A stretch of 28,312 bases of DNA. Source: a virus. Position numbers and translations under genes: made by a program. Within the stretch, counting starts at the first letter, position 1. Each line of letters starts with the position of its first letter. The stretch is from IMG/VR virus record IMGVR_UViG_3300002460_002708, positions 1 through 28,312 of that record. One strand, given 5' to 3'. The notes below the pieces were generated by a model that ran no database searches, was not told where the DNA came from, and saw only the letters and a list, made by a program, of their open reading frames with translations. This document shows, piece by piece, positions 1,792 through 25,487 of the stretch.

Positions 1792-2172
1792 TTATATTTT
1801 TGGGTTCCTATTAACTTGGGCGTGTAAATGGTATTCATTACCTTTTACTTTATGATACACCACTACCCTTTGTTTTCCATCAGAATTAGAAATAGCTCCT
1901 AAATAACCAACCCTTCTATTCATAAAATCAATAAATTCTTCGATATCTTCCTTGCCCCAATTCCTGACTGAAATATCAAATGCTCTACCTTCTCTGTGAG
2001 TGTCTGTTTGTCTTCCAATTGCTTCATCAAAAATAGAAGTTATTAGGCATGGTAAATTGCTTAAATTACAGAAATAAGAGGCATAGCCAAGAACAATGAT
2101 TAGTGCTGGATTCATTTTTTGTAAATCCGTGAGTGCAACATTATTTTTGAACTCAAAATTTAATTTGTCCAT
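1792..2172 (-). CDS. M15-type peptidoglycan peptidase (endolysin)
   Basis: A 126-residue protein with the zinc-peptidase signature of the M15/VanY-like family. TDTHREGRAFDI lies at residues 56-67 (zinc ligands H59 and D66 in the SxHxxGxAxD-type motif), and HLH at 115-117 supplies the third histidine. Such enzymes cut peptide cross-bridges in peptidoglycan and often serve as phage endolysins. There is no signal peptide, so export would need a holin; the nearby single-TM protein is a candidate. The ATG overlaps the end of the NeuB-type gene by 13 bases, so the cassette boundary sits directly on this gene's start. The family call is fairly sure; the exact bond cleaved is not shown. Confidence 0.75.
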   Translation of the reverse strand: MDKLNFEFKNNVALTDLQKMNPALIIVLGYASYFCNLSNLPCLITSIFDEAIGRQTDTHREGRAFDISVRNWGKEDIEEFIDFMNRRVGYLGAISNSDGKQRVVVYHKVKGNEYHLHAQVNRNPKI

Positions 2173-2969
2173 CTTCTAGCATATTTTTCTATTAATTGCC
2201 TGCCTTCAATTGGTTCTGGAGCAATCATTATCCCTAGATTAAGTTTATTGATTTTTTCTTCTGGTTGCAACCGATCAAAATCGCACAATGATTTCAATTG
2301 ATTGAAGTCAATAGAAACAGGGCCATCCTTGGTCTCATTTCTATTTTTTATTGTAAAATGCTTTTCAATAAAAGCGGCACCTAAAGCAGAGGCATATTTT
2401 GTGGGTAAATCCCAATCTTTATGAAGTGGGTCAGTATGGTCGGACCACCCTACAGGTGATTTCCTCCATTTGCTTTTTATGGCCATCATGCGGAGGAGGT
2501 TTGCCTCATAGGGAGAGTGTGGGTATTTACTTACGCAGTGCATAACACATTCAACCGGCTCTACTCTAGTTATTTCATTCACGTCCCACCCACCAGTAGA
2601 CACAATAACATTAAAGCCAATCCCTTTTGCTAGTTTGATTAGTGCGGTATCTGTGGCCTGAGGAGAAGCTATTTTGACCCATCTGAAACCAATATTAGCG
2701 AGGATGGGGAGATATTCTTTTTTATTTATTGTTGTGATAGGAATTAAATCATATTTTTTGCATGTATCGAAAAATTCTATGTGCTCATTCCATGTGAGTT
2801 CTAGCTTTTTTAATCGTTGATAATCACTCTCGAATTCTTCTGATAAATCTCGAGCAAAAAAAGTTTGTATCTTTGCACCCCAAGCACCAGCTTCAGCGGA
2901 GAGCTTAACCATTTCTTTAACTGTTTCGAGATCCCCTCCATGATTTTGGCATAGCTCAGATATGATCAA
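2160..2969 (-). CDS. neuB: NeuB-type nonulosonate synthase lacking SAF domain
   Basis: A 269-residue TIM-barrel protein of the NeuB family, whose members condense phosphoenolpyruvate with an N-acetyl-mannosamine-type sugar to make sialic, legionaminic or pseudaminic acid. Family landmarks: ISELCQNHGG at 3-12, AKIQTF at 32-37, KIAS at 99-102, STGG at 124-127, HCVSKYP at 144-150, GWSDHT at 174-179 (metal-binding His) and IEKHFT at 201-206. Usual members have about 340-350 residues with a C-terminal SAF/antifreeze-like domain that contributes an Arg to the partner's active site. This one stops at YARRWTN, just where that domain normally begins. The KIxSxE motif reads KIASPQ, so the usual Glu seems to be Gln. 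The start is TTG at 2969 with AGGAG six bases upstream; no in-frame ATG is nearby. Substrate is unproven. Confidence 0.85.
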   Translation of the reverse strand: MIISELCQNHGGDLETVKEMVKLSAEAGAWGAKIQTFFARDLSEEFESDYQRLKKLELTWNEHIEFFDTCKKYDLIPITTINKKEYLPILANIGFRWVKIASPQATDTALIKLAKGIGFNVIVSTGGWDVNEITRVEPVECVMHCVSKYPHSPYEANLLRMMAIKSKWRKSPVGWSDHTDPLHKDWDLPTKYASALGAAFIEKHFTIKNRNETKDGPVSIDFNQLKSLCDFDRLQPEEKINKLNLGIMIAPEPIEGRQLIEKYARRWTN

Positions 2970-3030
2970 AATAATCTCCTGATAAATTTATAAATAGATT
3001 TTATGATAAATATTATAAATTTAAAGAATG
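2970..3030. other. AT-rich spacer with short direct repeats before neuB
   Basis: This is the only gap between leftward genes inside the cassette. It is almost pure A+T and holds two similar words on the plus strand, GATAAATTTATAAA (about 2981-2994) and GATAAATATTATAAA (about 3005-3019). On the minus strand a TATAAT lies at 3017-3012 but lacks a good -35, so I do not call a promoter. The neuB ribosome site AGGAG is at 2980-2976. Confidence 0.4.
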
Positions 3031-5070
3031 CTATAATCCCTGGTTCACGCACATTTTTGCCTTTCCTGTTTCCATCAAACAGATCATTTGATCGATGTAA
3101 TAATAAAAAGTTTTAAACAGACTATAGTAAAGAACGATATAAGTTTTTAGCCTTTCGTGTTTAGTGGGTTGTAAATTTTCCAGTGAATTGCATTTATTCT
3201 CAACCTGGAATAGGTCTAACTGGCACATATCAACTATTAGATCATTAAAATCCTTATTTGTTAAATAGCTAGATTTGAACTTATCAATCTCTCTCACGGA
3301 ATGGGTGAAAACTTCGACAAGAGATGATCTTAGATTATGAATATTCTTAAAAAATTCTTCTGGAGAATTATGTGCTTTCAGTTGTTGAATCATTTTTTCT
3401 TCCTCTCTTAAGGAATTGATCATTGAATCATCAACAAATAAAAATAATTTCTGAAGATCTTTTTTAGCATTTTTTAGAAGTTCAAGATTTAGATCTGATT
3501 GTTTCACTACTTTTTCAATATCTTTTTCATCATGTTTCTTTAGATTTGATCTAATAAAATTTATGACATCAAAATTAGTATCAAATAAAGGGATCAAACT
3601 ATCCCAGTCAGAAATAGTTGTACCATTTATTAAAGCACCTTTAAGTGATGTATTATATACAGTGGGATTTGACACATAATCTTTCCCAGTTGTTTCTGCA
3701 TATTTTTTCAAAGAACTCTCATATTCTCCCAAGCATCTATACCATACGGGGATAGTGGTCCCCATTCCCCCATCGTTGGTTTTAATATCAAACCATTTCC
3801 CCTGTTCTTTTGATTTGTTAATATCAAATTCAACTTCTGTCCCATCCATGTGAGACTTCCCATCCATCATTATAAGATCAATTCCTGAAAGGATAATTTT
3901 TTTACAACCAAGCATCCATGCTAATTCCAGGCAAGCATTAGCACTAGAGACACCACCATTAACCAATCCATGCTCTAGACCTGTTTGGATACAAACACCA
4001 TTAGTTCTAAAAAGCATAAAAGAATCTTTAAAAAGGTCAAAGAACTCTGGTGGGGTCCATGGGTAAGCAGCATAAAAGATATTTTCTGTGTCTTTGGGTT
4101 CAACACCTTCAAATATATGTGATAATTTCCTCTCGCATCTCACTACTATGTGAGGTCTTATCCCTTCTTTTAATAATCTTTTAAGAGCAGCATCACAGGC
4201 AATAACAATAGCTTTATTAGTAAGATCATGCTGTTTACACTGGATAATAAAATCTTCCATCGATGGGCCAGCACCCAAAACAATTGCAGGGACATCCTTT
4301 GTCTGATTAAGTAAATTTTTTAAATTTTCAAATTCATTCCCATTATATGCTTTATCTATCTCTTCTCTATTAAGGGATGGAAAATTTTTAAACTTGCCCC
4401 ATAAATTATTAACCTTGTAACAATTCATTAAATTAAATTTATTCCTAATAGTTTGTTCCCATCTATTGAAACCATCACTAGAACAACCCATAGAAAGAAA
4501 TAATTGTTTAGAGGCGTCAATAACATCTTGGATCAACCCTGACCTTTCTTGTATCTTTGATTCAATGGCATCCCCATAAACAAATGGATCGGCAATAATT
4601 TCAGGTACTAATGCGGTAGATGCTCTTGCCCCTACTTCTGGAGATGAATAAGCAAATAATTTGTAAATCTCTGCTCTTAATTCTGGCCCTTTTTGTCCGA
4701 GGATAAAATCAAATCTTTTATCTTTAAAATATTTCCCAACAAAATGTCGTTTTAGTGTTTGTTTGAAAATTGGGATACTTGGTTCAATAACAATAACATG
4801 CAATATTTTTTTATCTAACTTTAGGACCTCTTCTATAACCTTAATAGTGGAAAACCCCAAGATGACACAACAGACGGGGTTTTTTATCCCCTTTATAATA
4901 ACTGTTTCTTCTACTGGGACAGGTTCCTCTGGATATTGGTTGAGTAACTGCTCCATCCCATCGTCCATATGGAATAAATTTGCCTGATAAATGCCAGGGC
5001 ACTCAGGCAAGATGGTGTAGTTTGAAGTCTTTGTCGATTTTTCTTGATTCAATTTTTCTGTGTTTTTCAA
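3031..5070 (-). CDS. Maf/DUF115-type protein glycosyltransferase
   Basis: A 679-residue protein of the Maf (motility associated factor, DUF115/MAF_flag10) family. Cellular members transfer CMP-activated nonulosonic acids to Ser/Thr of flagellin in the cytoplasm. Key segments: an N-terminal Rossmann-like part around 67-97 (VILGF ... VIVIEPS), the core motif IVLGAGPSMED at 263-273, CDAALKRLLKEGIRPH at 292-307, and GGVSSANACLELAWMLG ... ILSGIDLIMMDG at 372-404. The C-terminal 200 residues are charged and helical. The start is a TTG at 5070 with AGGAG nine bases upstream, inside the last 68 bases of the epimerase gene. No flagellin is encoded nearby, so its acceptor must be a virion protein or a host protein. 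The family call is strong; the acceptor is inference. Confidence 0.85.
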   Translation of the reverse strand: MKNTEKLNQEKSTKTSNYTILPECPGIYQANLFHMDDGMEQLLNQYPEEPVPVEETVIIKGIKNPVCCVILGFSTIKVIEEVLKLDKKILHVIVIEPSIPIFKQTLKRHFVGKYFKDKRFDFILGQKGPELRAEIYKLFAYSSPEVGARASTALVPEIIADPFVYGDAIESKIQERSGLIQDVIDASKQLFLSMGCSSDGFNRWEQTIRNKFNLMNCYKVNNLWGKFKNFPSLNREEIDKAYNGNEFENLKNLLNQTKDVPAIVLGAGPSMEDFIIQCKQHDLTNKAIVIACDAALKRLLKEGIRPHIVVRCERKLSHIFEGVEPKDTENIFYAAYPWTPPEFFDLFKDSFMLFRTNGVCIQTGLEHGLVNGGVSSANACLELAWMLGCKKIILSGIDLIMMDGKSHMDGTEVEFDINKSKEQGKWFDIKTNDGGMGTTIPVWYRCLGEYESSLKKYAETTGKDYVSNPTVYNTSLKGALINGTTISDWDSLIPLFDTNFDVINFIRSNLKKHDEKDIEKVVKQSDLNLELLKNAKKDLQKLFLFVDDSMINSLREEEKMIQQLKAHNSPEEFFKNIHNLRSSLVEVFTHSVREIDKFKSSYLTNKDFNDLIVDMCQLDLFQVENKCNSLENLQPTKHERLKTYIVLYYSLFKTFYYYIDQMICLMETGKAKMCVNQGL

Positions 5071-6292
5071 ATCTTGATTCTCCTATATGATCGTGTGCAT
5101 TTTCTATTAGTGCTGGATAAACTAAAGACCCTTTTTTTGTAAAATTAATATCTTTTAAATGGTTTACAATATATTGAGCAGCTTTCCCTTTTCCATATAG
5201 ATAAGATCTCTCATATTTTTTAGCAATGAACTGATACTCCATCGCCTTAATAATATCTAATTTATTAATATTGTGGATATCAATAACATTCCATGAACGT
5301 TCTCTTAAGTTTTGTCTTAATCCAAGATTAATTGAAGGGACTCCCAAGTAAGAGCATTCTCTTATACCCACACTTGAATTCCCAATTACTAACCTTGCCT
5401 TCGCTAATCTTGTAAGGAAATTTTTAGGAGATTCATTTATTGCTTTTACAAATAATTCTTCATAATTACTTTTATATTCATCTAAAAGTCTGATTATTTC
5501 TTCTCTACCAGGATCAGGGTTTGGCCAGTACCAATAACATTTCACTTTGTTCTGAAGACAAAAATCCATAACTGCTTCAAGGACTATTTTTGTTTGTTCA
5601 TACTGCTCTTGAATTCTCTCTGTATCGGGATGGAAAATACATAAAAGATATTTCTCTTGGGTAACATTTGATGTTTTGATTGTACTTCTTTTTATTCTCC
5701 ATTCTCTAATTAAATCAAGACTAGGGCATCCAGTATTGAATACTCTTCCCCCATTTTCTCCCATCTTCTTCACATATTTTTTACTACAATCAGTTGAAAC
5801 AAAATGATAATCAGAAAGCTTGGTGACAGCATGTCTTACTTTTTCATCAATATTCCCAGTGACCTCACCACCTTGTAGGTGAATTATTGGGACATTCATA
5901 TATGCACATGCCATCGCAGTAGGGAGAGTTTCGAATCTGTCTGCCACAACAATGACAGCATCAAAATATCTCTTAGATAAAAACTCCCCAACATTATGAG
6001 TTATCATGGCAGCGATTTTAACCGAACCGAGTTCTGTATTTTCTTGCTTGTCTAATAATAATGAAACGATTTCTAATTGACGAAAATCTTCTCTGATGTA
6101 TTCTTCTGCTTTCCCAAATTTTTCTTCAAGCAATGATGAAGATAAAACCAAAGTTAATTCCATATTAGGGTGCTCAGAAATTTCTTTAATTAAAGAGTAA
6201 CAACGAGAATAAGTAGCTCTGTTAAATATAAAAAGACAAAACTTTTTATCTTTATTGTAAATGTCGTTAATTGTTTTTGTTTTTTCTATCAA
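5003..6292 (-). CDS. neuC: hydrolysing UDP-GlcNAc 2-epimerase (NeuC/LegG type)
   Basis: A roughly 429-residue enzyme of the hydrolysing UDP-N-acetylglucosamine 2-epimerase family, which releases UDP and makes ManNAc (NeuC) or the 2,4-diacetamido analogue (LegG). Motifs in order: ADRFETLPTAMA, IHLQGGEVTGNIDEKVRHAV, TKLSDYHFVST, GCPSLD, and VIGNSSVGIREC with LGVPSINLGLRQNLRER. The usual GDRxE reads ADRFE. A C-terminal tail of about 45 residues (from KKGSLVYPAL) extends past the usual end and overlaps the next gene. I chose the TTG at 6292 because AAGGTGG lies six bases upstream and the overlap with neuA falls to 26 bases. An ATG at 6316 or further upstream is possible but has no ribosome site. 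It supplies the NeuB substrate. Confidence 0.85.
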   Translation of the reverse strand: MIEKTKTINDIYNKDKKFCLFIFNRATYSRCYSLIKEISEHPNMELTLVLSSSLLEEKFGKAEEYIREDFRQLEIVSLLLDKQENTELGSVKIAAMITHNVGEFLSKRYFDAVIVVADRFETLPTAMACAYMNVPIIHLQGGEVTGNIDEKVRHAVTKLSDYHFVSTDCSKKYVKKMGENGGRVFNTGCPSLDLIREWRIKRSTIKTSNVTQEKYLLCIFHPDTERIQEQYEQTKIVLEAVMDFCLQNKVKCYWYWPNPDPGREEIIRLLDEYKSNYEELFVKAINESPKNFLTRLAKARLVIGNSSVGIRECSYLGVPSINLGLRQNLRERSWNVIDIHNINKLDIIKAMEYQFIAKKYERSYLYGKGKAAQYIVNHLKDINFTKKGSLVYPALIENAHDHIGESRFEKHRKIESRKIDKDFKLHHLA

Positions 6293-6953
6293 ACTCAACC
6301 ACCTTGGCAAATTCATAATCAATGGGTTTATCAATATTGATTGATGACCAATCATCCATTACATAGGCCTTACATGGCCATATATAGAAAGATTCATATT
6401 TAAGAAACTCTCCACACTTAAAAACATAAAAAACTCCATTTCTTAAATAGGCAGAAGGGAGATCTTGTTTATTTTTGAAATTAGTTCTTTTAAGAGGTCT
6501 CAAATTACCTTTTGAACCAATATGATAAATCCTTTGGTGATCCCCATAAGTATTGCGAACAGAAATTAAACTTTTAATATTATTTTCATATAATAACTGG
6601 TTTATTTCTTGAAAGTTTTTTATAGATCTGAATGGAGATGTTGGTTGGATTAACCACACCCAACTATCTTTATCTATAGCTGTTTCATTTATAACATCAG
6701 TGACAACATCCTTCATTAGAGCAGTATCAGAAGCTAAATTTTTCTTTCTTTTTAAATAAGTTATTTTACTCGTATTCTCTTGGTCTAAAAGACATTGGAT
6801 ATCAGTTGAAATAATTATTTTATCAAAAACTCCACTGTCTTTACAGATTCTAATAGCTCTTTCTGTTATATTTTCTCTGTTATTTATTTTAATAAGATTT
6901 TTGTTAATGATAGATTTACTTCCTGCTCTTGCAGGGATTATTGCTATATTCAA
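6267..6953 (-). CDS. neuA: CMP-nonulosonate cytidylyltransferase (NeuA type)
   Basis: A 228-residue nucleotidyltransferase of the CMP-sialic acid synthetase family. It joins CTP and a nonulosonic acid, giving the donor used by Maf. Visible motifs: NIAIIPARAGSKS at 2-14 with KNL following, IISTD near 47-51, LASDTALMKD (the ASDTA motif), WLIQPTSPFRS, LRNGVFYVF, and SINIDKPIDYE near the end. The last normally reads xxDIDxxxD with two metal-binding Asp; here the first is Asn. The start is TTG at 6953, since the family's N-terminus (M-N-I-A-I-I-P-A-R) begins right there, with GGGGAG close upstream. It overlaps the upstream methyltransferase stop as TTGA. The reaction is well supported; the exact sugar is not. 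Confidence 0.85.
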   Translation of the reverse strand: MNIAIIPARAGSKSIINKNLIKINNRENITERAIRICKDSGVFDKIIISTDIQCLLDQENTSKITYLKRKKNLASDTALMKDVVTDVINETAIDKDSWVWLIQPTSPFRSIKNFQEINQLLYENNIKSLISVRNTYGDHQRIYHIGSKGNLRPLKRTNFKNKQDLPSAYLRNGVFYVFKCGEFLKYESFYIWPCKAYVMDDWSSINIDKPIDYEFAKVVEFDRKNKNN

Positions 6954-7879
6954 ACGCTCCCCCCAACCAAAACTATTTTATACCCCTCCATCGATTGAAG
7001 TATTTCTTTTTCTAGATATTCTGGAGATGGCCAAAAGGTTGATTCTCCTAAAACTTCTTTAGTGATTGTTTTATCATAGGGATTAAATCCATTTTGCCAT
7101 CTTTTTATAGGCATTAATTCTGGTTCTATTGACCAGTTATTATTAACAAAAAAACCATTATTTTCTAATATTTTACTTAGTCTTGCATAATTAAAATACC
7201 ATAAGTGTTGAGGGCAATAGGTGAAGCTTTCACTCTTTAAATGCTTTACTAACTTTGAATAAACATTAGGGACACAAACAATTATAAAACCATTTTTTTT
7301 AATTAAATCTTTACATTGTTTCAACAACTGATTAGGGTTTGGATGGTGTTCTAAAACCCCCCAAATAGTTACGCAATCCCATTCCTGTTTATTGCTCTTA
7401 ATAAAAGAATCAATATCGCTAGATATTGCGTTTACCGTTCTATTTTTACATGCACTAATGGCCACATGAGATTCATCGATACCTAGCGTTTCCACTTCGT
7501 TGTTAACAAGAGATAAAAAGAGGCCATTCCCACACCCGATATCAAGCGTCGATAACTTGTTCTCTATAATAAAATCTGCTGCTTTTTGAAATTTTTCTTT
7601 CTGCCTTTGTATTTCATGACCAGTTTCTTTTATCTTTGACCATAAAGAGAGAGCGATTGATTTCTCATAGAATTCTGAAAGTCTTTCTGGTTTTGCTTGT
7701 CTTTCATTATAGACCATTCCGCAGGAACAACGCATAACTCTCATGGTCTCTTTTTTGAACATTTCTCTAGAATTTGTGTTATTTTTACAAAAAGGACACT
7801 GAGCAGTAATGAAATCTTCAGGGGGAAGATTATTGAAAAATTTATTTACATATTCGGAAAACTGTTGGTATTTGTCCAA
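6950..7879 (-). CDS. zinc-ribbon class I SAM methyltransferase
   Basis: A 309-residue protein from a TTG at 7879 (AAGGA six bases upstream). A zinc ribbon at the N-terminus (CPFC at 28-31, CSCG at 51-54) is followed by a Rossmann methyltransferase fold with LDIGCGNG at 112-119, an acidic residue in ETLGIDES, and WGVLEHHPNP. After HLWYFN comes a C-terminal tail ending VLVGGSV. Proteins with this ribbon-plus-methyltransferase layout are frequent in LPS, O-antigen and sugar-modification clusters and often act on nucleotide sugars or glycans. As first gene of the leftward cassette, just before neuA, it probably methylates the nonulosonic acid or its precursor. A longer frame upstream exists but would overlap the divergent promoter region, so I reject it. 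Confidence 0.75.
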   Translation of the reverse strand: MDKYQQFSEYVNKFFNNLPPEDFITAQCPFCKNNTNSREMFKKETMRVMRCSCGMVYNERQAKPERLSEFYEKSIALSLWSKIKETGHEIQRQKEKFQKAADFIIENKLSTLDIGCGNGLFLSLVNNEVETLGIDESHVAISACKNRTVNAISSDIDSFIKSNKQEWDCVTIWGVLEHHPNPNQLLKQCKDLIKKNGFIIVCVPNVYSKLVKHLKSESFTYCPQHLWYFNYARLSKILENNGFFVNNNWSIEPELMPIKRWQNGFNPYDKTITKEVLGESTFWPSPEYLEKEILQSMEGYKIVLVGGSV

Positions 7880-7891
7880 ACAAAATCCTTT

Positions 7892-7919
7892 TTGATCGAA
7901 TAATTTAATAATATATAAA
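7892..7919 (+). promoter_or_regulatory. candidate promoter of the 2-hydroxyacid dehydrogenase
   Basis: TTGATC at 7892-7897 and TATAAA at 7914-7919 are separated by 16 bases and point to the plus-strand gene at 7940. A GAGG ribosome site lies at about 7928-7931. The match to sigma-70 consensus is moderate in a very AT-rich stretch, so chance is possible. Confidence 0.35.
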
Positions 7920-7939
7920 AATAAAATGAGGCAAGTCAA
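7910..7939 (-). promoter_or_regulatory. candidate leftward promoter of the nonulosonate cassette
   Basis: On the minus strand TTGACT (7939-7934) and TATATT (7915-7910) are separated by 18 bases, upstream of the methyltransferase TTG at 7879. The same -35 hexamer TTGACT occurs in the candidate late promoter near 27.0 kb. It overlaps the opposite promoter, so the two could compete. This would let the cassette be expressed apart from the late operon. Confidence 0.4.
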
Positions 7940-8776
7940 ATGATATTAAATATAGCGAAAAAAACTCAAGGAGATAACGAATTTTATTCAAGATGGGAGG
8001 TTATTGGTCAAGTATTTAAGCATATCCCCCAGTTATCACAGTTAGCAAAAATCAAAATTCTTGTTGTCGATTTTAGAAGATCCATCACTGATGATTTCCT
8101 AATGCTATTCCCTAATCTTGAAGTAATTGCTTCAGCAACAACAGGACATACTCATCTCAAATTTAATAATGATAAAATAAAATTAATAACACTAAAAGGT
8201 GAACGTGATTTTCTTGATGGCATCACTTCAGCAGCAGAACATACCATCCATTTAATGTTTAAATTATTTAAAGAAGTCTCAAATCCTCCGATCAAATTGT
8301 CAAAAAAATCAATCGGTCTAATTGGCGGTTATGGGAGAGTAGCCACTCAAGTTTCAAGAATCTGCAAGTCACTAGATATGGATGTAAAAATATTTGATGT
8401 CGAACATAACAAATATTTTATGAATAGTATCATTAGGGATGTTGATGTTTTATCAATACACCTAGAAGAAAATAAAGATACAATCGGCCTCATCACTAGA
8501 GAGCATATTTATTCAATGAAAAAAACTGCCTTCATCATCAATACTGCCAGGCCTAGTCTTATTGATGAAAATGCACTTGAGCTAGCATTAGAAAATAATG
8601 TTATTGCTGGTGCAGCCATAGATTCGGATGATTCGATTCTTTATGGACGGAATATTAGAAATTTAATATTAACTAATCATGTTGGGGGACAGTCATTTGA
8701 AGATAGAATATCAACAGATCAATTTATTTGCGATAAAGTTAAGGATTGCTTCCAATCACTTCCCAGAAAACTTTAA
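7940..8776 (+). CDS. D-2-hydroxyacid dehydrogenase-like protein
   Basis: A 278-residue protein of the NAD-dependent D-isomer 2-hydroxyacid dehydrogenase family (3-phosphoglycerate dehydrogenase-like). SAAEHTIHLMF lies at 97-107. The dinucleotide site IGLIGGYGRVA is at 125-135, with an acidic residue in KIFDVE for NAD preference. NTARPSLIDE at 201-210 contains the presumed catalytic Arg204, and LTNHVGG at 244-250 contains His247. The usual TARG is TARP, and the region after AAIDS lacks a clear match to the normal catalytic Glu. It is also short (usual 310-330). It is the only plus-strand gene within the late block and overlaps the next gene tail-to-tail by 38 bases. Homologues occur in some bacterial surface-sugar clusters, so a role in making the sugar is plausible, but the substrate is unknown. 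Confidence 0.75.
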   Translation: MILNIAKKTQGDNEFYSRWEVIGQVFKHIPQLSQLAKIKILVVDFRRSITDDFLMLFPNLEVIASATTGHTHLKFNNDKIKLITLKGERDFLDGITSAAEHTIHLMFKLFKEVSNPPIKLSKKSIGLIGGYGRVATQVSRICKSLDMDVKIFDVEHNKYFMNSIIRDVDVLSIHLEENKDTIGLITREHIYSMKKTAFIINTARPSLIDENALELALENNVIAGAAIDSDDSILYGRNIRNLILTNHVGGQSFEDRISTDQFICDKVKDCFQSLPRKL

Positions 8777-9152
8777 CTGAAGCAGTGGTCACACTACTAA
8801 ATAACGCTGTCCCAGAGATTGTTCTACATTCAATAGTCACTGCTGTTTGGGTAATATCGGTTACATGAGCAGACACTTGCGTTGAAAGTGCATGAGCTTT
8901 TACAAAAATAATTTTATTTTGTTTCTCTTTTAATGAAAATGTTTTGGTAATAGTAGCACTACCAGTAGCAGAATAAGTGTTTTCTCCATGTTCCATTGAT
9001 TGATAAAGGAATGGGACATGCGCAGTGCTAGATTGTTGGTAAGAATGGATACTCTCTACTTTTACCTGGAATGATCTTTCAAAATTTTTATTAACAGAAG
9101 GGACTGTGCTTGCGTCTAAGGACTTTAGTTGGGATGGGACTTTAAGTGTCAC
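8739..9152 (-). CDS. hypothetical beta-rich virion protein, 137 aa
   Basis: A 137-residue protein starting at a GTG that overlaps the stop of the upstream ejection-type protein as GTGA. It has no recognised domain. The sequence is rich in Ser, Thr and Val with alternating polar and hydrophobic residues (TYSATGSATITKTFSL, VTIECRTISGTALF), suggesting a beta-sandwich. It is the last gene of the main virion block before the sugar cassette. Its final 38 bases are also the antisense 3' end of the dehydrogenase gene. A structural or tail-accessory role is inferred from position. Confidence 0.6.
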   Translation of the reverse strand: MTLKVPSQLKSLDASTVPSVNKNFERSFQVKVESIHSYQQSSTAHVPFLYQSMEHGENTYSATGSATITKTFSLKEKQNKIIFVKAHALSTQVSAHVTDITQTAVTIECRTISGTALFSSVTTASVKVFWEVIGSNP

Positions 9153-12383: not shown

Positions 12384-13178
12384 CTATGCAAATGCTAAAT
12401 AAGCACCAAGTTGAGCGATTCCCCCAACTCCCTGAAGAATTGCCCCTCTTCTTTGTGTATCTAATTCTAATTGTGCTAATTCAGATTCAAAACTTTGGCG
12501 AATTCTTGTTGAGTCAAGTGCTAATAATTCATTCTCTATATCTTGTAACCTTCCAAATTCTATCTGTGCTTGAAGTCTTTCTCTTCTTTCTCCAATTTGT
12601 TGTTCAACTCTTCTTTGGGCCTCTCTTGCTTGTTCTGTCCCTGTAGCAGCTTGCGCTCGTGCAATCCCTGTTTGTTGTTGCTCTCCTAGCCTTTGTTTTT
12701 CAAATTGGCTTTGAGCAAAACTAGATCTTAATATCCCTCTCTGCGAGGCCGCTTCTCCAACATCTTGTCTCTGTTCTTGCCCAGCAATCCCAATCTCTTG
12801 CATTCTTCTTTGTAATTCATTTTCTAATGCTTGTTCCCTGGCCATGCGTTGAGTTTCAACTTGCCTTCTTAAATCTTCTTCTTTACCAATATTCCCTTCC
12901 AATCTTTTTTGAATGGCCTCTACTCTTCTCTTTTCATCTTCTTGTAACCCAGACAAATCAACTGGGGGTGCTCCAGGTGCTTCAGTTTTCCCACCTAATG
13001 CCATGCCTAAAGCTTGTTCAACTTGTGGTTTAATCCCAAAAGTAAGAGCGGCACCAAAAGGATCATCTTTTGCTCTTTTCAGCGTCCCACCAACAAATTC
13101 TTGACCAGTCTCTAAAACATCCCCAACTGATTTTACTGCCCCTTCAAAAACATTCCCAATATCATCAAATAATCCCAT
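12384..13178 (-). CDS. Gln-rich coiled-coil internal virion protein
   Basis: A 264-residue protein starting MGLFDDIGNVFEGAVKSVGDVL, a short amphipathic opening common in podovirus internal or DNA-transfer proteins. A long Gln/Arg/Glu-rich coiled coil (about 85-240) follows, and it ends in a hydrophobic glycine-rich segment (GAILQGVGGIAQLGAYLAFA). The motif SQRGILRSSFAQSQFEKQ lies in the middle of the coil. The gene shares a TAATG junction with the nozzle gene upstream. Such proteins are packed in the head and leave with DNA; this is inferred from composition and position. Confidence 0.65.
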   Translation of the reverse strand: MGLFDDIGNVFEGAVKSVGDVLETGQEFVGGTLKRAKDDPFGAALTFGIKPQVEQALGMALGGKTEAPGAPPVDLSGLQEDEKRRVEAIQKRLEGNIGKEEDLRRQVETQRMAREQALENELQRRMQEIGIAGQEQRQDVGEAASQRGILRSSFAQSQFEKQRLGEQQQTGIARAQAATGTEQAREAQRRVEQQIGERRERLQAQIEFGRLQDIENELLALDSTRIRQSFESELAQLELDTQRRGAILQGVGGIAQLGAYLAFA

Positions 13179-14986
13179 TATCTTTTTCCTATTGCTTTGA
13201 ATTCAACATCAAAGCCATTAATTCTCCAAGGTTGATCAGCATATTGATTTGAAAATCTAAATGCTATATGTCTCCCTATTATACTTTGGTTATTGATAGA
13301 TGTTAATTTGGTTTTTGGGGAGATAACATCTTCTCTTCCCCAAGAGGCCTCCCCCCATTTTGATAAACCCCAAATCATGGCACTTTCAAGTAGGGAAATA
13401 TTTTTAAGCCCTGCTCTACCTATTTTATGGAAATCAATAAAATAATGGAGTTTTAAGTTAAAGTTTCCTTCTTCTCTTAGTCTTGTATTTATGCTTTTAA
13501 ATAATTTAGAAATATCTGCACCCCCAAAATCATAATCCTTCGATCTCCAATAAGAATTAATACCGCCAACAGTATATTTTGAAGCAGAGTTGGGAATAAT
13601 AGAAAAATCAGATTCTAAGGTTAAAACAGAAGATGTATTTGTCGTTATATATCTTTCTTGTCCTTCCCCTGCCCCTGATACAATTTTTAACAAAAACCCA
13701 GATAATCCGTTATTGGCAGTTGAAAAAGTAGCTGAGCTTGCAGTTAAAGTATTTGCTGTGGCCGCTGCTGCGGTGTCATTGTAACCACTGGCGAGGCCTT
13801 CAGAATTTCCTCTATCGTCTTCATAAAGATACCCTCTGTAATCTCCAAATATTATTTTCGTTTTATCATTTGAATCGAAAAAACTAGATAAAAAACTTAC
13901 CTCTCTCCCTTCTATGGGTGGTTGCCAAATAAGTGTTCTGAAATCATAGATAAGACCAATATTATTTCTATTTGATCCAGACTTAGGTATATAAAGTTTA
14001 TATTGATTTAGTTCAACATCATAAATTGCCTTAGAAAATTTTAGAACAGATAAATTAGTATCGTCCAATAAGAAATCATCAACAACCTTAGATGAAAGAG
14101 AAGTTATATTGTTACCATCAAAGGTCATCACCCCTCTTTCACTTAAAAAGATATGGATACCCCCGACATCTGCTAAACTAAACGGTGCCAATAATCCTGT
14201 GTTCTCAACTATTCTTTGTAGATCATTGACGTCTCCAAGACCTGGAGTAAATTTCCATATTGATTTTTCAGTATAATAAATAATGTCATCATTCAAAGTC
14301 TTTTGACCTTGAATAGCACCATCTTTTGAAGAACCACCGATATAAAAAAATTGTGTGAATCTATGAGGATTTGGGACACCATCAGTACCAAATTCACTTC
14401 TAAAAACTTTTACAGCAGCATCCACTTCCGCTGTGTCAGTAATATTAGCAGCATAAATTCTATTCCTGTGCTGTAATAAATATTTTGCGATTGGAACAGA
14501 TGTCGCAGAAGTAAAAGAAGATAGATTTATTGTTGTTGCACTACCATTCCATACCTGAATGGGATCTACCCCATTAGACATTACAACAATGTCATCTGAA
14601 GCTGACCTTGGGTCTTGAATTTGAACGTAATTCCAAAAAGAATTAGAGGCACCAGATAAACCTGTTCTTATGGCCGAAGCAGTAGCAGAAGAATAATTAA
14701 ACAGAGAATCACCAGCAGCGACGACGTGAAAAGTTTGAGAAGACCCTAGTTTTGCAAAATGATAATGGCCTGTGACTACAGCACCAGCTGTAACTCCAGT
14801 GCTTGCCAGTCTTGTGTTAAGAAGTCTTAATGAACCTTTTCTTTTTTCTATATCAGAATTTGGATTATAAACAACATTTCTAGAATTGTTGGTTTCGGTA
14901 TCGTTTAAGTCAGAGAAGTCAGGAGTGCTTTTAAACCCACCTTTGAATTTATTAATTGTAACTGCTGGAGGTAAAAAAAGTGCCAT
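13178..14986 (-). CDS. tail nozzle / stabilisation protein
   Basis: A 602-residue beta-rich protein. The N-terminus (INKFKGGFKSTPDFSDLND, then NNSRNVVYNPNSDIEKRKG) matches the opening of podovirus tail nozzle or stabilisation proteins, in which a 'FxGGxxT...D...xNxxxxxxGxxxKRxG' pattern begins a beta-propeller-like body. Propeller-like segments follow (HRNRIYAANI; IIYYTEKSIWKFTPG; IHIFLSERGVMTFDG; IGLIYDFRTLIWQPP; IIFGDYRGYLYEDD). It follows the three adhesin-like genes and precedes the ejection proteins, as in podovirus gene order. The call rests on pattern and order; I cannot verify the exact family. Confidence 0.7.
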   Translation of the reverse strand: MALFLPPAVTINKFKGGFKSTPDFSDLNDTETNNSRNVVYNPNSDIEKRKGSLRLLNTRLASTGVTAGAVVTGHYHFAKLGSSQTFHVVAAGDSLFNYSSATASAIRTGLSGASNSFWNYVQIQDPRSASDDIVVMSNGVDPIQVWNGSATTINLSSFTSATSVPIAKYLLQHRNRIYAANITDTAEVDAAVKVFRSEFGTDGVPNPHRFTQFFYIGGSSKDGAIQGQKTLNDDIIYYTEKSIWKFTPGLGDVNDLQRIVENTGLLAPFSLADVGGIHIFLSERGVMTFDGNNITSLSSKVVDDFLLDDTNLSVLKFSKAIYDVELNQYKLYIPKSGSNRNNIGLIYDFRTLIWQPPIEGREVSFLSSFFDSNDKTKIIFGDYRGYLYEDDRGNSEGLASGYNDTAAAATANTLTASSATFSTANNGLSGFLLKIVSGAGEGQERYITTNTSSVLTLESDFSIIPNSASKYTVGGINSYWRSKDYDFGGADISKLFKSINTRLREEGNFNLKLHYFIDFHKIGRAGLKNISLLESAMIWGLSKWGEASWGREDVISPKTKLTSINNQSIIGRHIAFRFSNQYADQPWRINGFDVEFKAIGKR

Positions 14987-19203: not shown

Positions 19204-20463
19204 TTAAAGATCAATTTTAATGTCTCTAATCATTAATGTCTTCTTAGGATTATCATTAAGAGCTAAATTTTTGTATGCTCTAATAAATGCCTCAAAAGCA
19301 TCCTGGTTAGAAACTCTAGAAAGAATTGCTCCATCAGCATCAGCAAATTTGAAATCAGAAAGAGTAAACATTTTTATTGCATCTCTTCTTCCAACAAACA
19401 AACTGTTATAAGGAGCTTGACGATCTTTAACCAATGGAACCCCATTATAAGTTAAAGAACTCATCCCAGCATTGAACTCTGGAGAGTTGTAACGTCGATC
19501 TGCTGCAACGCTTTCTAAAAATGCTCTGATTGTATCATGATGGCCCCAAATGACATCAGGCTCAACACCAGATTGAGCAGAAATTGTGTCAAACGCAGTT
19601 TGCATTAAGTTCCCATCAACAATTCTTTCAACACCACTGTTCCCTAAAATATTAGCGTTCCATGCGGAAACAGAAGCTCTGTTGATATTCTGAACAGAAG
19701 ATCCAAAAAATGCATTTGAACCCCACATATTGGCCTGAGTATAAACATCGACCAATGCCTGAAGTCCCAACATCTCAATTGAACTACCACCAGCACCTCT
19801 GTTGAAAACAAAAGTTTCACACTGAGAAACTGAGACAGTTGAATCAGAAATTGTAATTGTATCAGTAGTTGTTGCAGGGTTTGTTGAGAGAGCAACACTT
19901 ACAACTGTTTGACTGGAAGCTAGTGCAGTAGGAGAAGCTACAGTCCCGAAATCGAGCAATTGAGATTGGTAGACGTAACGTGCTCCAGGTTGACCCGGCT
20001 CAGCATATCTATTATACACTGCAATAGAGGTACTAGATGCGCCAGCAGTTCCCACTTGAGCAATACGGCCATCTCCTGTTCCCCATGTTTGACGTCCAAG
20101 GTCATTGATAAGATCTGAAGTTACACCTTTCATCTCTGTTTCCATCGCCATTGCAAAAGCATTTTTACCTGCTTCAATTACTGGCCCAGAAACTTGAATT
20201 CTTCCATACTGATAAGTAGCAGTTACCCTTGCTTCTTGATAAGCTTGGTTCCCAGCAGTTGGGAGTGTCCCCCCTTCAGCTCTGGCCCCTACCCCAGGGT
20301 TTCTTGCTGTATGAACAGGAAAACGAACATGACGGCCTGCCCACATACGGTCAGATTCATCAAACATCTTAAATGCCATAACTTCGTTGTTAATAGTTTC
20401 ACGGATGGCACCCTCGTAAAACTCTTTTAAAGCTTGATCATAGTTTGTTAAATTTTGAACCAT
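19204..20463 (-). CDS. major capsid protein (HK97-like)
   Basis: A 419-residue protein. Features of a phage major capsid protein: N-arm helices (YDQALKEFYEGAIRETINNEV), then WAGRHVRFPVHTARNPGVGARAEGG, ATYQYGRIQVSGPVIEAGKNAFAMAMETEMKG and LINDLGRQTWGTGDG. Later comes DVIWGHHDTIRAFLESVAADRRY and a C-terminal SRVSNQDAFEAFIRAYKNLAL. This 'r-hvxfpvh-x-rn-x-gxgar-xegxxlp' type is widespread in podoviruses and marine phages. It follows the scaffold gene with a strong GAGGAG ribosome site five bases from the ATG, fitting high expression. Its base composition looks visibly less AT-rich than its neighbours, as often seen for abundant capsid proteins. Confidence 0.85.
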   Translation of the reverse strand: MVQNLTNYDQALKEFYEGAIRETINNEVMAFKMFDESDRMWAGRHVRFPVHTARNPGVGARAEGGTLPTAGNQAYQEARVTATYQYGRIQVSGPVIEAGKNAFAMAMETEMKGVTSDLINDLGRQTWGTGDGRIAQVGTAGASSTSIAVYNRYAEPGQPGARYVYQSQLLDFGTVASPTALASSQTVVSVALSTNPATTTDTITISDSTVSVSQCETFVFNRGAGGSSIEMLGLQALVDVYTQANMWGSNAFFGSSVQNINRASVSAWNANILGNSGVERIVDGNLMQTAFDTISAQSGVEPDVIWGHHDTIRAFLESVAADRRYNSPEFNAGMSSLTYNGVPLVKDRQAPYNSLFVGRRDAIKMFTLSDFKFADADGAILSRVSNQDAFEAFIRAYKNLALNDNPKKTLMIRDIKIDL

Positions 20464-21318: not shown

Positions 21319-23334
21319 TCAAGCACCCTGTGGGCCTACATTACCCATCGCCCCTTCTGGGACTGTTGGGCCTTCTGGTCTTCCTACTGCATTCTGATTT
21401 TGTTGTTCAGTAGCCCTCCCTTTGTTGGGTAGAGATTGTACCAAAAATTGCATATGGGCCTGCAATACTGCTAATGCCAATTGCTTCCGATCTTCTTCTA
21501 GTCGTAAAAACTCAGGGGTTTTAATCCAATCGCTCATGACTCTAAAATATGCCATATGATCTTGATACGGGAGAATTTGTGGTTCTTTCCCTTTTTTGAT
21601 TTCTGTTATGTCCATCCATACTTGGTCATCAGCATTTTCAATTTTTTCAATGATCTCATCAAAATTCCCAAATCTAAAGGCATTAAGGAATGTAGTTGGG
21701 TCAGAAATAATTCTTCTATCCCATAGATCTAGTAATCTTTGCTGTTTCCCACCTTTAAATTCAGGGAACATTGATTCAACTTCAATATGGACGTCAGTAT
21801 GGTGCCTAAAATCAGCATTACTCATCCATTCTGAGCCCACTTTCCCATTATCCCCCAGGATTTGGATCTTTCTTTTTTCATTGTATTCTTGATCCATAAG
21901 CAAAAGTTGTTGGTTGGCGACAACTCTCATTGCACTGGCAAGTTTTCTAATCATGGGGTTTAAAATTTCATCAGATTGTTCTGCTATAATTTGTAAAGCG
22001 ACACCAGCGGTTACGTTTGGAGGAGGAGCAACGCTCGCTTCTCTTTGTCCTGCTACATCCCTGAAATCAGAAATTAATTCTTGCGCCATTTGCACAGCAT
22101 AATTAGGGAGAGCAGCGAGTTGCGCTTGATGGGGTTCAGTCACTGCGGAATTATATTCTACAACTTCTGATTCTTCATCGTTTAAGGCATCTTCTTGTAG
22201 CTGTGCCCCTTTTGGGACCATCCACTTTCCGTTTGCCATAAGGTAGATATTTTTAAGCTTTTTCTGTCTTAATCTATTGTAAGCTCGCTGAATAGAAGTG
22301 AGTCTTTCAATCGTGCTCTGACCCCAAAAATGAAATCCATCAGATCTTTCAGAAAATTTAGCATAAGGATAAATATTATCACCGTAATCATTGGGAAATT
22401 CTCCTAGATAAGCAACTTGGTCTCCTGCAACAACACAAACAACCCCATTCTCATATTGAGAATTTGGTCTCATCCAAAAAATTTTGACCAAAACTTCAGA
22501 ATTAATTGAATCACGAACGCTGTTAGCGGCACTCCCAAGATGAGCAGATATAGGACTAGAAAGCCTACTGATGATTTTTTCATACTCTGTCCTTTCATCC
22601 CCACATGCTTTATCTATTTTATCTTTCAAATGGGGATACATTAATTCTATTTCTGATACACTTTTAAACGATCTCTCAATTAACCATGGTTGGTCTTTAA
22701 TTTCTGTAATATTGTCGTCACCATTTATAATAGAAAAAGATGATAATGGGGTTGATTCTACTTCTCCTAAAAATATTTTCTCAGTTTCAATCCCCTCACT
22801 ATTTGTGAAAATTTCTCCACTCTCAGACTTGGGGACAGTGATAAAATCTCCTGCTAATGGGTTCCATATGGTTCTAATGAAAGAAGATCCAGTAATAAGC
22901 CCCAAAACAATATATTTGTCATAGGTATTTTCGAGATCAATTTTTCTCCACAAATAAACCAATGATTTATCTGCTGATTTGGCTGCGTTTTTATCAATTT
23001 CATCGTTCCCATTTGGAATAACTCGTGGAGCAGGTCTATTTTTGGTTAATTTGGCATGACGAGATTCGATGAAAGAGCCAATTCTATTAATCGTGAGGGG
23101 TCTGGTCCCATCACTAGGGATAGTTATTTGATTGGTACGATAATTAAATAAAAGATTCTGGTAACCAAGGTAATAAGACAGGTTGACTGTCCACTGAAAT
23201 TCGTATTTAAGCCTTCTTTGGATGCCATCGTCATGGAGGCGATTAACATACATCCCCCATTCTTCTTTGGTTTTAGGAAGATCCCCCTGGCGTATTTTTT
23301 TAGGGACTTTAACTTGTTTCTTTTTGTCTAACAC
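21319..23334 (-). CDS. portal protein
   Basis: A 671-residue protein starting at GTG (23334) with AGGA six bases upstream. It resembles podovirus (P22-type) portals. N-terminal LPKTKEEWGMYVNRLHDDGIQ is followed by WTVNLSYYLGYQN, then PLTINRIGSFIESRHAKLTKNRPAPRVIP, and LVYLWRKIDLENTYDKYIVLGLITGSSFIRTIW. A central segment has FHFWGQSTIERLTSIQRAYNRLRQKKLKN, then GVALQIIAEQSDEILNPMIRKLASAM. The C-terminal tail is Gln/Pro/Gly-rich. It forms the ring through which DNA enters and leaves. It lies between terminase and scaffold, as expected. Confidence 0.85.
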   Translation of the reverse strand: MLDKKKQVKVPKKIRQGDLPKTKEEWGMYVNRLHDDGIQRRLKYEFQWTVNLSYYLGYQNLLFNYRTNQITIPSDGTRPLTINRIGSFIESRHAKLTKNRPAPRVIPNGNDEIDKNAAKSADKSLVYLWRKIDLENTYDKYIVLGLITGSSFIRTIWNPLAGDFITVPKSESGEIFTNSEGIETEKIFLGEVESTPLSSFSIINGDDNITEIKDQPWLIERSFKSVSEIELMYPHLKDKIDKACGDERTEYEKIISRLSSPISAHLGSAANSVRDSINSEVLVKIFWMRPNSQYENGVVCVVAGDQVAYLGEFPNDYGDNIYPYAKFSERSDGFHFWGQSTIERLTSIQRAYNRLRQKKLKNIYLMANGKWMVPKGAQLQEDALNDEESEVVEYNSAVTEPHQAQLAALPNYAVQMAQELISDFRDVAGQREASVAPPPNVTAGVALQIIAEQSDEILNPMIRKLASAMRVVANQQLLLMDQEYNEKRKIQILGDNGKVGSEWMSNADFRHHTDVHIEVESMFPEFKGGKQQRLLDLWDRRIISDPTTFLNAFRFGNFDEIIEKIENADDQVWMDITEIKKGKEPQILPYQDHMAYFRVMSDWIKTPEFLRLEEDRKQLALAVLQAHMQFLVQSLPNKGRATEQQNQNAVGRPEGPTVPEGAMGNVGPQGA

Positions 23335-23357: not shown

Positions 23358-23549
23358 TTATAATGGAAATTCTTCTTTTATGGAAGGAAGCTTGCTTTTA
23401 AGTGACTTATTCTCAAGCTCAGCGAGAGCATATTCCTGATAATTCCTGGACATTAATCTATTAATTAAGTCCTTAGTTAAAATATAATTCTTAATTTCAA
23501 TAAAAACAATAAGACACAGCAAAAAAATAATAACAATAAGTGTTTCCAT
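23358..23549 (-). CDS. small single-TM protein between terminase and portal
   Basis: A 63-residue protein with a hydrophobic helix at about residues 3-18 (TLIVIIFLLCLIVFIE), then a charged helical tail (LINRLMSRNYQEYALAELEN). It starts in a TAATG overlap with the large terminase gene. Small membrane proteins are sometimes coded between packaging genes, but I do not recognise this one. It could be a holin-like, superinfection-exclusion or membrane-tethering protein. The coupled start supports that it is a real gene. Confidence 0.55.
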   Translation of the reverse strand: METLIVIIFLLCLIVFIEIKNYILTKDLINRLMSRNYQEYALAELENKSLKSKLPSIKEEFPL

Positions 23550-25030
23550 TAAATATCTCCATAAACACGTTTAATTTTTCTTTTTTTATCATAATTTTTT
23601 AAATCTTTCCAAACCCTCATTTCATTTTGAGTCAATCCCTTGTCATAAACAACTTGTAGTGAACTATCTGGCCTCATGTCACTAGGGAAAACGATATCTA
23701 CTTGGCTTTTAAGGGCATCTAATAAATCATCATGCTGGAGATTGGGATGAGTTGTAATCTGATGGTATAACTCAGTGTGCTCTTTCTTGATAAAAATCCT
23801 GCCTTCATGGAAAATTGGCTGTAAAGATCTAATCCTTGTACCTTTTGATATCCGAGTATTAGTCGTTACTTCTTTCAATGGGAAATAAAAGTCTCTTTTT
23901 TCCATTTCCTCAAAGAGTGAATGCTTCAAAAATTTTTCTAGAGCAAATTTTTCCATCGCAACACACATCATGGGTGAATATTTATTAACAAGATCAAAAA
24001 TGAGTACAATAAGTTCTGAAGGCTCACATCTTTTTTGTATGGCCTCACAGATATACCATTTCCCATCATAGTCAACTCCATTAACTATGATTCCTGAAAA
24101 ATCTGCACGGGATTTCATTGATATTGCAGGATCTAATGTCAAAAAATAGATAAGTCCTTTTGGTATTTCTTCAAAAAATTTGACTTCGAGGGCCTTAAAG
24201 GTGCACATATCCGACGAAACTGCTCTGTTGAGGTATTGGCAGTTGAAAATATATTCGCCCTGCGTCTTACGCATCTGCTCTAAAAAATCTTTGGTTAAAA
24301 CTTCTGGCATTAAAAGTTTTCCACTATCATCTTGTGCTTGTCTTACAAACGAATCAACGTTGTCAAATTCTGGGCCATCAGGGTCTAATAACCATGAATA
24401 GAGTTCATAAAATCCCCAACGAGTCCCAATAACTATGATTTCTCCATCAGGCTCTAAAATAGAAAGAAGAAGCTTGTAGTATTCAATTGTTTTTTCAACT
24501 TGCTCAGGAGAGTTGATGTTGTTCCGACTTACTACGTCATCTAAAATAATGTAATCAAAATGTAGTCCTACTATAGTACCTTTCTCTAAAGAAGATGCCA
24601 TAATCGTAGGCTCTTTTTTAACTTGGTTTCTAGTAGAGACGATGAATTCACCTTCTTTCCATGTATTGTTCTTGTTTACCCAATCTCCAAAAATAGTCCT
24701 AAATTTTACATTCTCCTCAAAATGGGTTTTTATCTCTTTGGCAAAACGAATGGCATTTCTTTGAGTTTCAGAAGCAATAAGGACCCTTAGATTGGGATTT
24801 TTGGTTATCTTATGGAGGGTTTTCCCTACTGTCACTACGGACGATTTGTATGAACCTCTAGGCATTAAGATTAGTTTGGTTCTCTTTTTTGACTTTTCTA
24901 TGAAATTTAAAAGATCCCGATGAGGGTTGGGATGTAATTTATTATAATTTAAAACATTTTTAATAAAATAATAAGAATCATTTCTCGATTTATCTTTTAG
25001 CCTTTCTACCTGGTTTTGGTAATCACTCAT
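23549..25030 (-). CDS. terL: terminase large subunit
   Basis: A 493-residue DNA-packaging motor. The ATPase part shows MPRGSYKSS at 56-64 (Walker A variant), IILDD at 161-165 (Walker B with catalytic acid region), and VIGTRW at 200-205. The nuclease part has LTLDPAIS (first Asp at 300), an acid around VAMEKF, and QHDDLLDA at 432-439. Length and motif order are normal for phage terminases. It overlaps the small-subunit gene by eight bases, and its stop is joined to the next gene by TAATG. Identification is firm. Confidence 0.93.
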   Translation of the reverse strand: MSDYQNQVERLKDKSRNDSYYFIKNVLNYNKLHPNPHRDLLNFIEKSKKRTKLILMPRGSYKSSVVTVGKTLHKITKNPNLRVLIASETQRNAIRFAKEIKTHFEENVKFRTIFGDWVNKNNTWKEGEFIVSTRNQVKKEPTIMASSLEKGTIVGLHFDYIILDDVVSRNNINSPEQVEKTIEYYKLLLSILEPDGEIIVIGTRWGFYELYSWLLDPDGPEFDNVDSFVRQAQDDSGKLLMPEVLTKDFLEQMRKTQGEYIFNCQYLNRAVSSDMCTFKALEVKFFEEIPKGLIYFLTLDPAISMKSRADFSGIIVNGVDYDGKWYICEAIQKRCEPSELIVLIFDLVNKYSPMMCVAMEKFALEKFLKHSLFEEMEKRDFYFPLKEVTTNTRISKGTRIRSLQPIFHEGRIFIKKEHTELYHQITTHPNLQHDDLLDALKSQVDIVFPSDMRPDSSLQVVYDKGLTQNEMRVWKDLKNYDKKRKIKRVYGDI

Positions 25031-25487
25031 CTTTGAATAATTCGGTTAATTTTTTTGCCTTCTCAAGCTCACTATCACCAGACCCCTTATCACTGAAAAT
25101 ATCAATGATGGTTTTAATAGCAGCAAGCTTTGTCTTGTAATCTACTACAGAATACACAGTCCCCTTTTTATCAACCTTTTGCTCTTGAGCACTAAGGCAT
25201 TCCTTTAAATGAGAAGCAATTGTAGCAAAACTTATCCCTTCATCTTTTAAAGATTCTTTTAAATCTTTATTAGGAATAGTGATGCTATCCTTCTTCTCTT
25301 TTGAAATACCAGACTCAGAAATGGCCCTCTCTAAGTTCCCATGTTCAATAAGCTTTTTTATAAGCTGCCTTTGATAAGGCTCTCTATTATTAAATTTATC
25401 AAAATTTTCTTGTACTAATATCTCATTAGCAAAAGGAGCACGAGCAAATAAAATAGGTTTTGGGTTATCCTCTTCTTCATGCTGCAT
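25023..25487 (-). CDS. terS: terminase small subunit
   Basis: A 154-residue protein from the ATG at 25487, preceded by AAAGGAG at six bases. A start at 25535 would add 16 residues but overlap the dehydrogenase gene by 59 bases and has no ribosome site. LIKKLIEHGNLERAISESGI is a helix-turn-helix-like DNA-binding region. The following helices and YSVVDYKTKLAAIKTIIDIF near the end match small terminase subunits that recognise viral DNA and dock on the large subunit. It directly precedes terL, which supports the call. Confidence 0.7.
   Translation of the reverse strand: MQHEEEDNPKPILFARAPFANEILVQENFDKFNNREPYQRQLIKKLIEHGNLERAISESGISKEKKDSITIPNKDLKESLKDEGISFATIASHLKECLSAQEQKVDKKGTVYSVVDYKTKLAAIKTIIDIFSDKGSGDSELEKAKKLTELFKDE

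Follow-up and report, generated by a model that had tools for sequence, protein, structure and literature searches.

The virus record IMGVR_UViG_3300002460_002708 of IMG/VR carries a six-gene cassette (2160-8776) in which enzymes predicted to synthesise, activate and transfer a nonulosonate, a sialic-acid-type sugar, stand together in a phage. The stretch analysed here, referred to as the window, comprises the entire record (28,312 bases), which is a linear fragment lacking terminal repeats. The cassette encodes a NeuB-like synthase, a Maf-type glycosyltransferase, a NeuC-type epimerase, a NeuA-type cytidylyltransferase, a methyltransferase and a 2-hydroxyacid dehydrogenase, and all six genes are also present in three further phages (loci L086, L142 and L088 on contigs G001, G1074 and G003, respectively). 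The reading that we favour, and to which we give slightly less than an even chance, is that this phage lineage makes a sialic-acid-type sugar by way of a NeuB without the SAF domain and that its Maf, freed from flagellin, O-glycosylates the phage's own virion proteins.

In the window, the cassette is located between a small virion-side gene and a probable lysin gene, and the dehydrogenase gene is the one on the plus strand:

1792..2172, minus strand, probable lysin of the M15 peptidase type, one cassette boundary (HxxGRAxD...HLH pattern visible in the sequence)
2160..2969, minus strand, NeuB-like nonulosonate synthase, 269 amino acids (aa) (PF03102, E=2.4e-37, above cut-off; TTG start)
3031..5070, minus strand, Maf-type glycosyltransferase, 679 aa (MptE-like/Maf PF01973, E=4e-28; TTG start)
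5003..6292, minus strand, NeuC-type hydrolysing UDP-N-acetylhexosamine (UDP-HexNAc) 2-epimerase (TIGR03568, Epimerase_2; likely TTG start at 6292)
6267..6953, minus strand, CMP-sugar synthetase of the NeuA type, 228 aa (PF02348, CTP_transf_3, E=2.5e-16; TTG start)
6950..7879, minus strand, S-adenosylmethionine methyltransferase with an N-terminal Cys-pair (zinc-ribbon-like) segment (PF13489, Methyltransf_23, E=1.7e-19; likely TTG start)
7940..8776, plus strand, D-2-hydroxyacid dehydrogenase-like protein (PF02826, 2-Hacid_dh_C, E=2.6e-24)
8739..9152, minus strand, small Ser/Thr-rich (27%) virion-side protein, the other cassette boundary (found in all four cassette phages)

The cassette genes adjoin or overlap, and the end of NeuB and the start of the lysin gene share 13 bp. 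The most likely starts of NeuC and the methyltransferase are TTG codons at 6292 and 7879, in place of 6355 and 7939, respectively. TTG starts, mostly with a Shine-Dalgarno sequence, are used by five of the six cassette genes (2160-7939 region) as against one of the 31 other window genes; we rejected this as a conserved trait of the cassette because the relatives use mostly ATG. A Pfam profile search with the window lysin gave no match, and profile searches with the small virion-side protein found no family match. The lysin counterparts show a weak Peptidase_M15_4 match in L088 and Amidase_2 in G001 and G1074.

The family membership of the six proteins and their conserved active-site motifs are established, as is the recurrence of the set, in a conserved position, among phages. 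An initial annotation had placed the proteins in the families above, and profile searches confirmed this for all six (PF03102, TIGR03568, PF02348, PF01973, PF13489 and PF02826). NeuC passes the equivalog cut-off of NCBIfam TIGR03568 (297.3 bits, cut-off 235.9; Epimerase_2, E=1.2e-54), and its DRF, GGE and ID motifs are retained in all four phages and in human GNE. For the NeuB-type synthase the annotation stood in part: the PF03102 barrel was recovered, whereas the SAF domain (PF08666) of canonical NeuB, PseI and LegI, present in 8 of the 20 NeuBs scanned, is absent from the window NeuB. The protein consists of a TIM barrel only, and the NeuB profile alignment ends near position 249 of 329. 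The NeuBs of the four cassette phages measure 263-270 aa, compared with 331-355 aa in most bacterial loci, and two phages hold relatives of 269-270 aa with 45% identity. The AlphaFold2 model (predicted local distance difference test, pLDDT, 89.9) has its best Foldseek matches in 6ncs, Neisseria meningitidis NeuB, PseI and SpsE. Residues E5, K33, K99, H178 and H204 are conserved, which we take to be the active-site Glu and Lys and two metal-binding His. We also noticed a C-terminal Arg-Trp motif in several SAF-less NeuBs (L059, L100, L110, L142 and the window), and it might stand in for the SAF-domain arginine, in a part where the model is unreliable. The cytidylyltransferase retains the CTP-binding N-terminus, and its best Protein Data Bank match is N. 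meningitidis NeuA (1eyr, E=4.8e-21).

The Maf protein contains the central Maf_flag10/MptE-like domain PF01973 (98.8 bits, cut-off 34.6), and its relatives in L086 and L142 share 42% identity with it over 648-668 aa. The best Foldseek match of its low-confidence model (pLDDT 62) is the Magnetospirillum Maf 5mu5 (E=2.6e-13, 745 columns, template modelling score 0.35), and no other protein of like size gave a strong structural match. Maf_flag10_N gave no match in three cassette phage Maf proteins. Among ~1,040 genomes sampled from four phyla, the closest cellular Maf found is a Bacillota protein encoded immediately after a flagellin-like gene (31% identity over 338 aa), the flagellin being assigned by reading the open frame; weaker matches occur in Spirochaetota and Pseudomonadota, and none was found in 198 Bacteroidota genomes. 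No match to the phage Maf was found on plasmids or among 50,697 phage records.

The methyltransferase is conserved in the four phages. In bacterial clusters from several phyla, NeuB, NeuC and NeuA have a homologue of the dehydrogenase as a neighbour, indicating that the dehydrogenase belongs to the pathway. In addition to these six, the window contains a seventh sugar gene outside 2160-8776:

25477..26277, minus strand, short UDP-glucose/UDP-ManNAc dehydrogenase-like protein, accessory (PF00984, PF03721; without the C-terminal UDP-binding domain)

This protein retains the GxGGxCxPKD motif. Its relatives lie in the same place in L004 and inside the cassette in L086, and none was found in G1074 or G003. 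The end of the L004 contig (15975-17527) duplicates the sequence before it in inverted orientation and looks like an assembly or amplification artefact.

Scans of IMG/VR from single window NeuB or Maf sequences gave no match, probably because exact peptides are not conserved, and motif-anchored alignments found the relatives; a NeuC scan anchored on conserved motifs gave 25 loci. The gene content of bacterial and viral NeuC loci, as well as the shared core genes, was determined by tblastn searches that used the proteins of the window as queries. G001 (42.1 kb) has the gene row of the window in the same place, namely the small virion-side gene, the dehydrogenase (on the other strand), the methyltransferase, the cytidylyltransferase, NeuC, a UDP-glucose-dehydrogenase-like gene, Maf and NeuB. 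Its ends share a 123-bp direct repeat, and NeuB reads across the joint as an intact 269-aa protein overlapping an amidase lysin; G001 therefore closes on itself. G1074 (35.6 kb), from a Maf-anchored scan, likewise matches the window row, beginning with the small virion-side gene and ending at an amidase lysin, and has a small RusA-like gene inserted in it. G003 (43.2 kb) contains the six genes in a rearranged order together with GroES and GroEL, whose genes (L088, 5418-7284) lie between the cassette dehydrogenase and methyltransferase. The cassette overlaps the lysin gene in three phages, even though the lysin type differs. Scans with portal and capsid proteins gave just two short relatives, both ending before the cassette region and thus silent on whether relatives without the cassette exist.

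The initial annotation had called for a search for the same set in related phages and had named a chimeric assembly as a way in which it could fail. The sole point for a chimera or for bacterial contamination of the viral contig is that the record is a metagenomic fragment. The same cassette, in the same order and with the same neighbours, recurs in independent contigs, one of them closed, and these three relatives refute this explanation, which we consider virtually impossible. The co-occurrence of synthesis, activation and transfer in a phage, as first proposed, is strengthened by this conservation in four phages. The proposed phage context was likewise upheld, in that minus-strand virion genes matched PHROGs profiles:

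23549..25030, minus strand, terminase large subunit (phrog_38, E=8.4e-76)
21319..23334, minus strand, portal protein (phrog_156, E=2.5e-39)
19204..20463, minus strand, major head protein (phrog_14242, E=2.8e-66)
13178..14986, minus strand, virion structural protein of the tail/stabilisation type (phrog_3287, E=4.5e-23; HTVC033P 'putative tail structure protein')

The virion module also contains three tandem paralogues of ~165 aa (14997-15503, 15510-15995 and 15995-16483), of which relatives have one to three copies; the two that were searched gave no PHROG match. As further observations on the related contigs, the terminase large subunit of L002 (3111-5369) has an intein-like insertion of ~250 aa with Cys at its start and Asn before Cys at its end, which the window does not have, and a collagen-like Gly-X-Y repeat protein is encoded downstream of the lysin in L142 (13244-14266).

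Portal, capsid and tail-type genes are common to all four cassette phages. Mean core identities in the six phage pairs are 55, 54, 41, 55, 42 and 42%, and mean cassette identities in the same order are 44, 43, 34, 45, 35 and 36% (r=0.99, from six non-independent pairs of four genomes). Because the two fall in parallel, we suggest that the cassette was present in the common ancestor and has been kept since. On sequence grounds, the six-gene cassette would thus be old and vertically inherited in a podovirus-like lineage, a pattern drawn from few independent points. A NeuC tree obtained by a quick search, which also included 50 sequences from cells and 23 from other viruses, groups the window, L086 and L088 in one branch (Shimodaira-Hasegawa-like approximate likelihood ratio support 100). 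In an unrelated phage contig with terminase and ribonucleotide reductase genes (L103), NeuB, NeuC and a cytidylyltransferase occur alongside a Maf that is more distant, placing the combination of synthesis and Maf in a second phage lineage. The host of the window phage could not be assigned, because no tRNA gene was found in the window, no closely related isolate phage was found, and NeuC relatives come from many phyla, all at ~40% identity.

The initial annotation had described a self-contained route from UDP-N-acetylglucosamine (UDP-GlcNAc) or its diacetamido analogue. All four phages, the closed G001 among them, lack the dehydratase (PF02719) and the aminotransferase (PF01041) that the legionaminic and pseudaminic routes require; what the cassette could achieve on its own is thus limited to the route from UDP-GlcNAc via N-acetylmannosamine (ManNAc) to an acid of the N-acetylneuraminic acid (Neu5Ac) type. 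The diacetamido half of the claim did not hold, as such a sugar would require host precursors, which the host could supply. From the enzyme families we infer the following order of reactions. NeuC would act on a UDP-HexNAc of the host, in the simplest case UDP-GlcNAc, and release a 2-epimerised free sugar, for instance ManNAc. The NeuB without SAF would condense this sugar with phosphoenolpyruvate to a nine-carbon keto-acid, and the NeuA-type enzyme would activate the product with CTP. The methyltransferase and the dehydrogenase suggest a tailored sugar and are probably the tailoring enzymes. Maf would then attach the sugar to Ser/Thr residues of a protein while still in the cytoplasm. Since virion genes flank the cassette on one side and lysis genes on the other, and NeuB runs into the lysin start, the cassette is probably expressed late. 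We give an even chance to the proposal that CMP-nonulosonate is synthesised late and transferred to protein, most likely to a phage virion protein produced concurrently.

A virion acceptor is favoured by the position of the cassette, its overlap with the lysin gene and its divergence in step with the virion genes. The small virion-side protein (8739-9152) has a Ser/Thr content of 25-28% in three of the four phages; as a Maf acceptor it is a speculative candidate and no more. The function suggested in the initial annotation, immune or receptor camouflage, is conjecture. The same kind of sugar might instead be placed by Maf on flagellin or some other protein of the host, which would alter motility or block superinfecting phages that depend on the flagellum. 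This is the main rival because flagellin is the sole kind of acceptor known for the Maf family (PMC11339370; PMC4065374); in addition, the nearest cellular Maf found adjoins a flagellin gene, and no acceptor was identified in the phage. Against it, the cassette is surrounded by virion and lysis genes and its divergence parallels that of the virion genes, and late modification of flagellin would be of little benefit in a dying cell. No flagellin (PF00669) was found in five phage records. We regard modification of a host protein as unlikely, although still a serious competitor. Mafs are described as flagellin O-glycosyltransferases that accept various CMP-nonulosonates, including CMP-Neu5Ac, and recognise surface Ser/Thr with no strict sequon (PMC11339370), and Maf glycosylation of flagellin precedes export (PMC4065374).

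Several observations weigh against our preferred reading of virion glycosylation with a sialic-acid-type sugar. We know of no Maf acceptor other than flagellin. The phage NeuB lacks the SAF domain, and the active-site Glu adjoining its K-I-G/A-S motif is Gln in the window. All four phage cytidylyltransferases have N-x-D in place of the D-x-D of N. meningitidis NeuA. The dehydrogenase is encoded on the strand opposite to the other five cassette genes, and it retains the active-site Arg and His and not the usual Glu, roles that these residues presumably have as expected of 2-hydroxyacid dehydrogenases. Long branches are joined together in the NeuC tree. Furthermore, CbMaf left non-cognate flagellin unmodified (PMC11339370). 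The active-site changes leave room for a related keto-acid, and the chemistry may depart from Neu5Ac. In such a case, the SAF-less NeuB, the altered cytidylyltransferase and the dehydrogenase would use another substrate, and the related product would still be put on protein. NeuB and the cytidylyltransferase have strong domain matches but remain below the equivalog cut-offs of NeuB, PseF and related models (for PseF, TIGR03584, 104.6 against 205.7), and are therefore superfamily members without an assigned substrate; NeuB is also fold-related to the 3-deoxy-D-manno-octulosonate 8-phosphate (KDO8P) and 3-deoxy-D-arabino-heptulosonate 7-phosphate synthases. However, NeuC passes its equivalog cut-off and NeuB is far nearer to NeuB, PseI and SpsE than to the KDO8P synthases, and we find a different substrate rather improbable.

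Nonulosonate synthesis also occurs in viral contigs of another kind. Approximately 20 of the 25 viral NeuC contigs also contain NeuB or NeuA homologues, and Maf is present in three of the 25. NeuB, NeuC and NeuA without Maf were observed in L092, L093, L094, L096, L105-L107, L090, L091 and L110, mostly with a NeuB of SAF length and in some cases with glycosyltransferase-like genes; these apparently represent a second, separate phage use of nonulosonate synthesis. Such contigs are consistent with an explanation in which the sugar of the window phage is added to a host surface glycan (lipopolysaccharide or capsule) to exclude superinfection, and in which the Maf-like protein is a transferase with a different specificity; a weak phrog_4603 sialyltransferase match of Maf points the same way. 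Yet the Maf resembles those of flagellin systems well beyond the central domain, and export or polymerase genes were not seen in the cassette, which makes a surface glycan target quite improbable. Among the 50,697 phage records, NeuC found no match except one misfiled contig, that of Moritella viscosa with NeuA and NeuC (FPLJ01000048.1), and a distant NeuB was found in two records (marine).

Phage-associated NeuB and NeuA are already known, from this marine phage NeuB and from a report of neuB and neuA in viral metagenomes (Roux et al. 2013, PMC3877843). In the open-licence literature we found no phage described as combining nonulosonate synthesis with a Maf. The bacterial Maf flagellin systems of Campylobacter, Aeromonas, Clostridium and Magnetospirillum are alike in that NeuB/NeuC/NeuA-type synthesis feeds Maf; in contrast, the phage cassette lies beside virion and lysis genes and is without flagellin, the LegB/C or PseB/C families and the NeuB SAF domain. 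Bacterial NeuB-NeuC-NeuA-2-hydroxyacid dehydrogenase clusters (for example L009 from Formosa and L060 from Anaerolineaceae) share the four neighbouring enzyme families but differ in gene order and in NeuB, which is mostly 331-355 aa long, with a confirmed SAF domain in several. A donor cluster with Maf was expected among the bacterial NeuC loci, but Maf was present in none of 80. The NeuB-like protein 6ncs of Leptospira borgpetersenii is the best match to the phage NeuB in both sequence and fold, its 290-aa entry leaving no room for SAF; it is cellular and 28% identical. PMC12619734 and PMC12691614 cite Freeman et al. 2023 for mycobacteriophages that glycosylate their own capsid and tail proteins. 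This is the kind of outcome that we propose for the cassette. The mycobacteriophage system reportedly combines phage glycosyltransferases with host-made sugars and involves neither a phage-made nonulosonate nor a Maf.

If our reading of virion glycosylation is correct, some phages build and attach a sialic-acid-type sugar themselves, beyond borrowing host sugars, through a nonulosonate glycoprotein pathway that is encoded entirely by the virus, includes a minimal NeuB and has been retained through deep divergence of the capsid genes. The Maf would then have a natural acceptor other than flagellin, and the compact enzymes, a SAF-less NeuB and a Maf with a new acceptor, would serve for probing domain and acceptor requirements. 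It would also raise the question of what role a nonulosonate plays on environmental phage particles.

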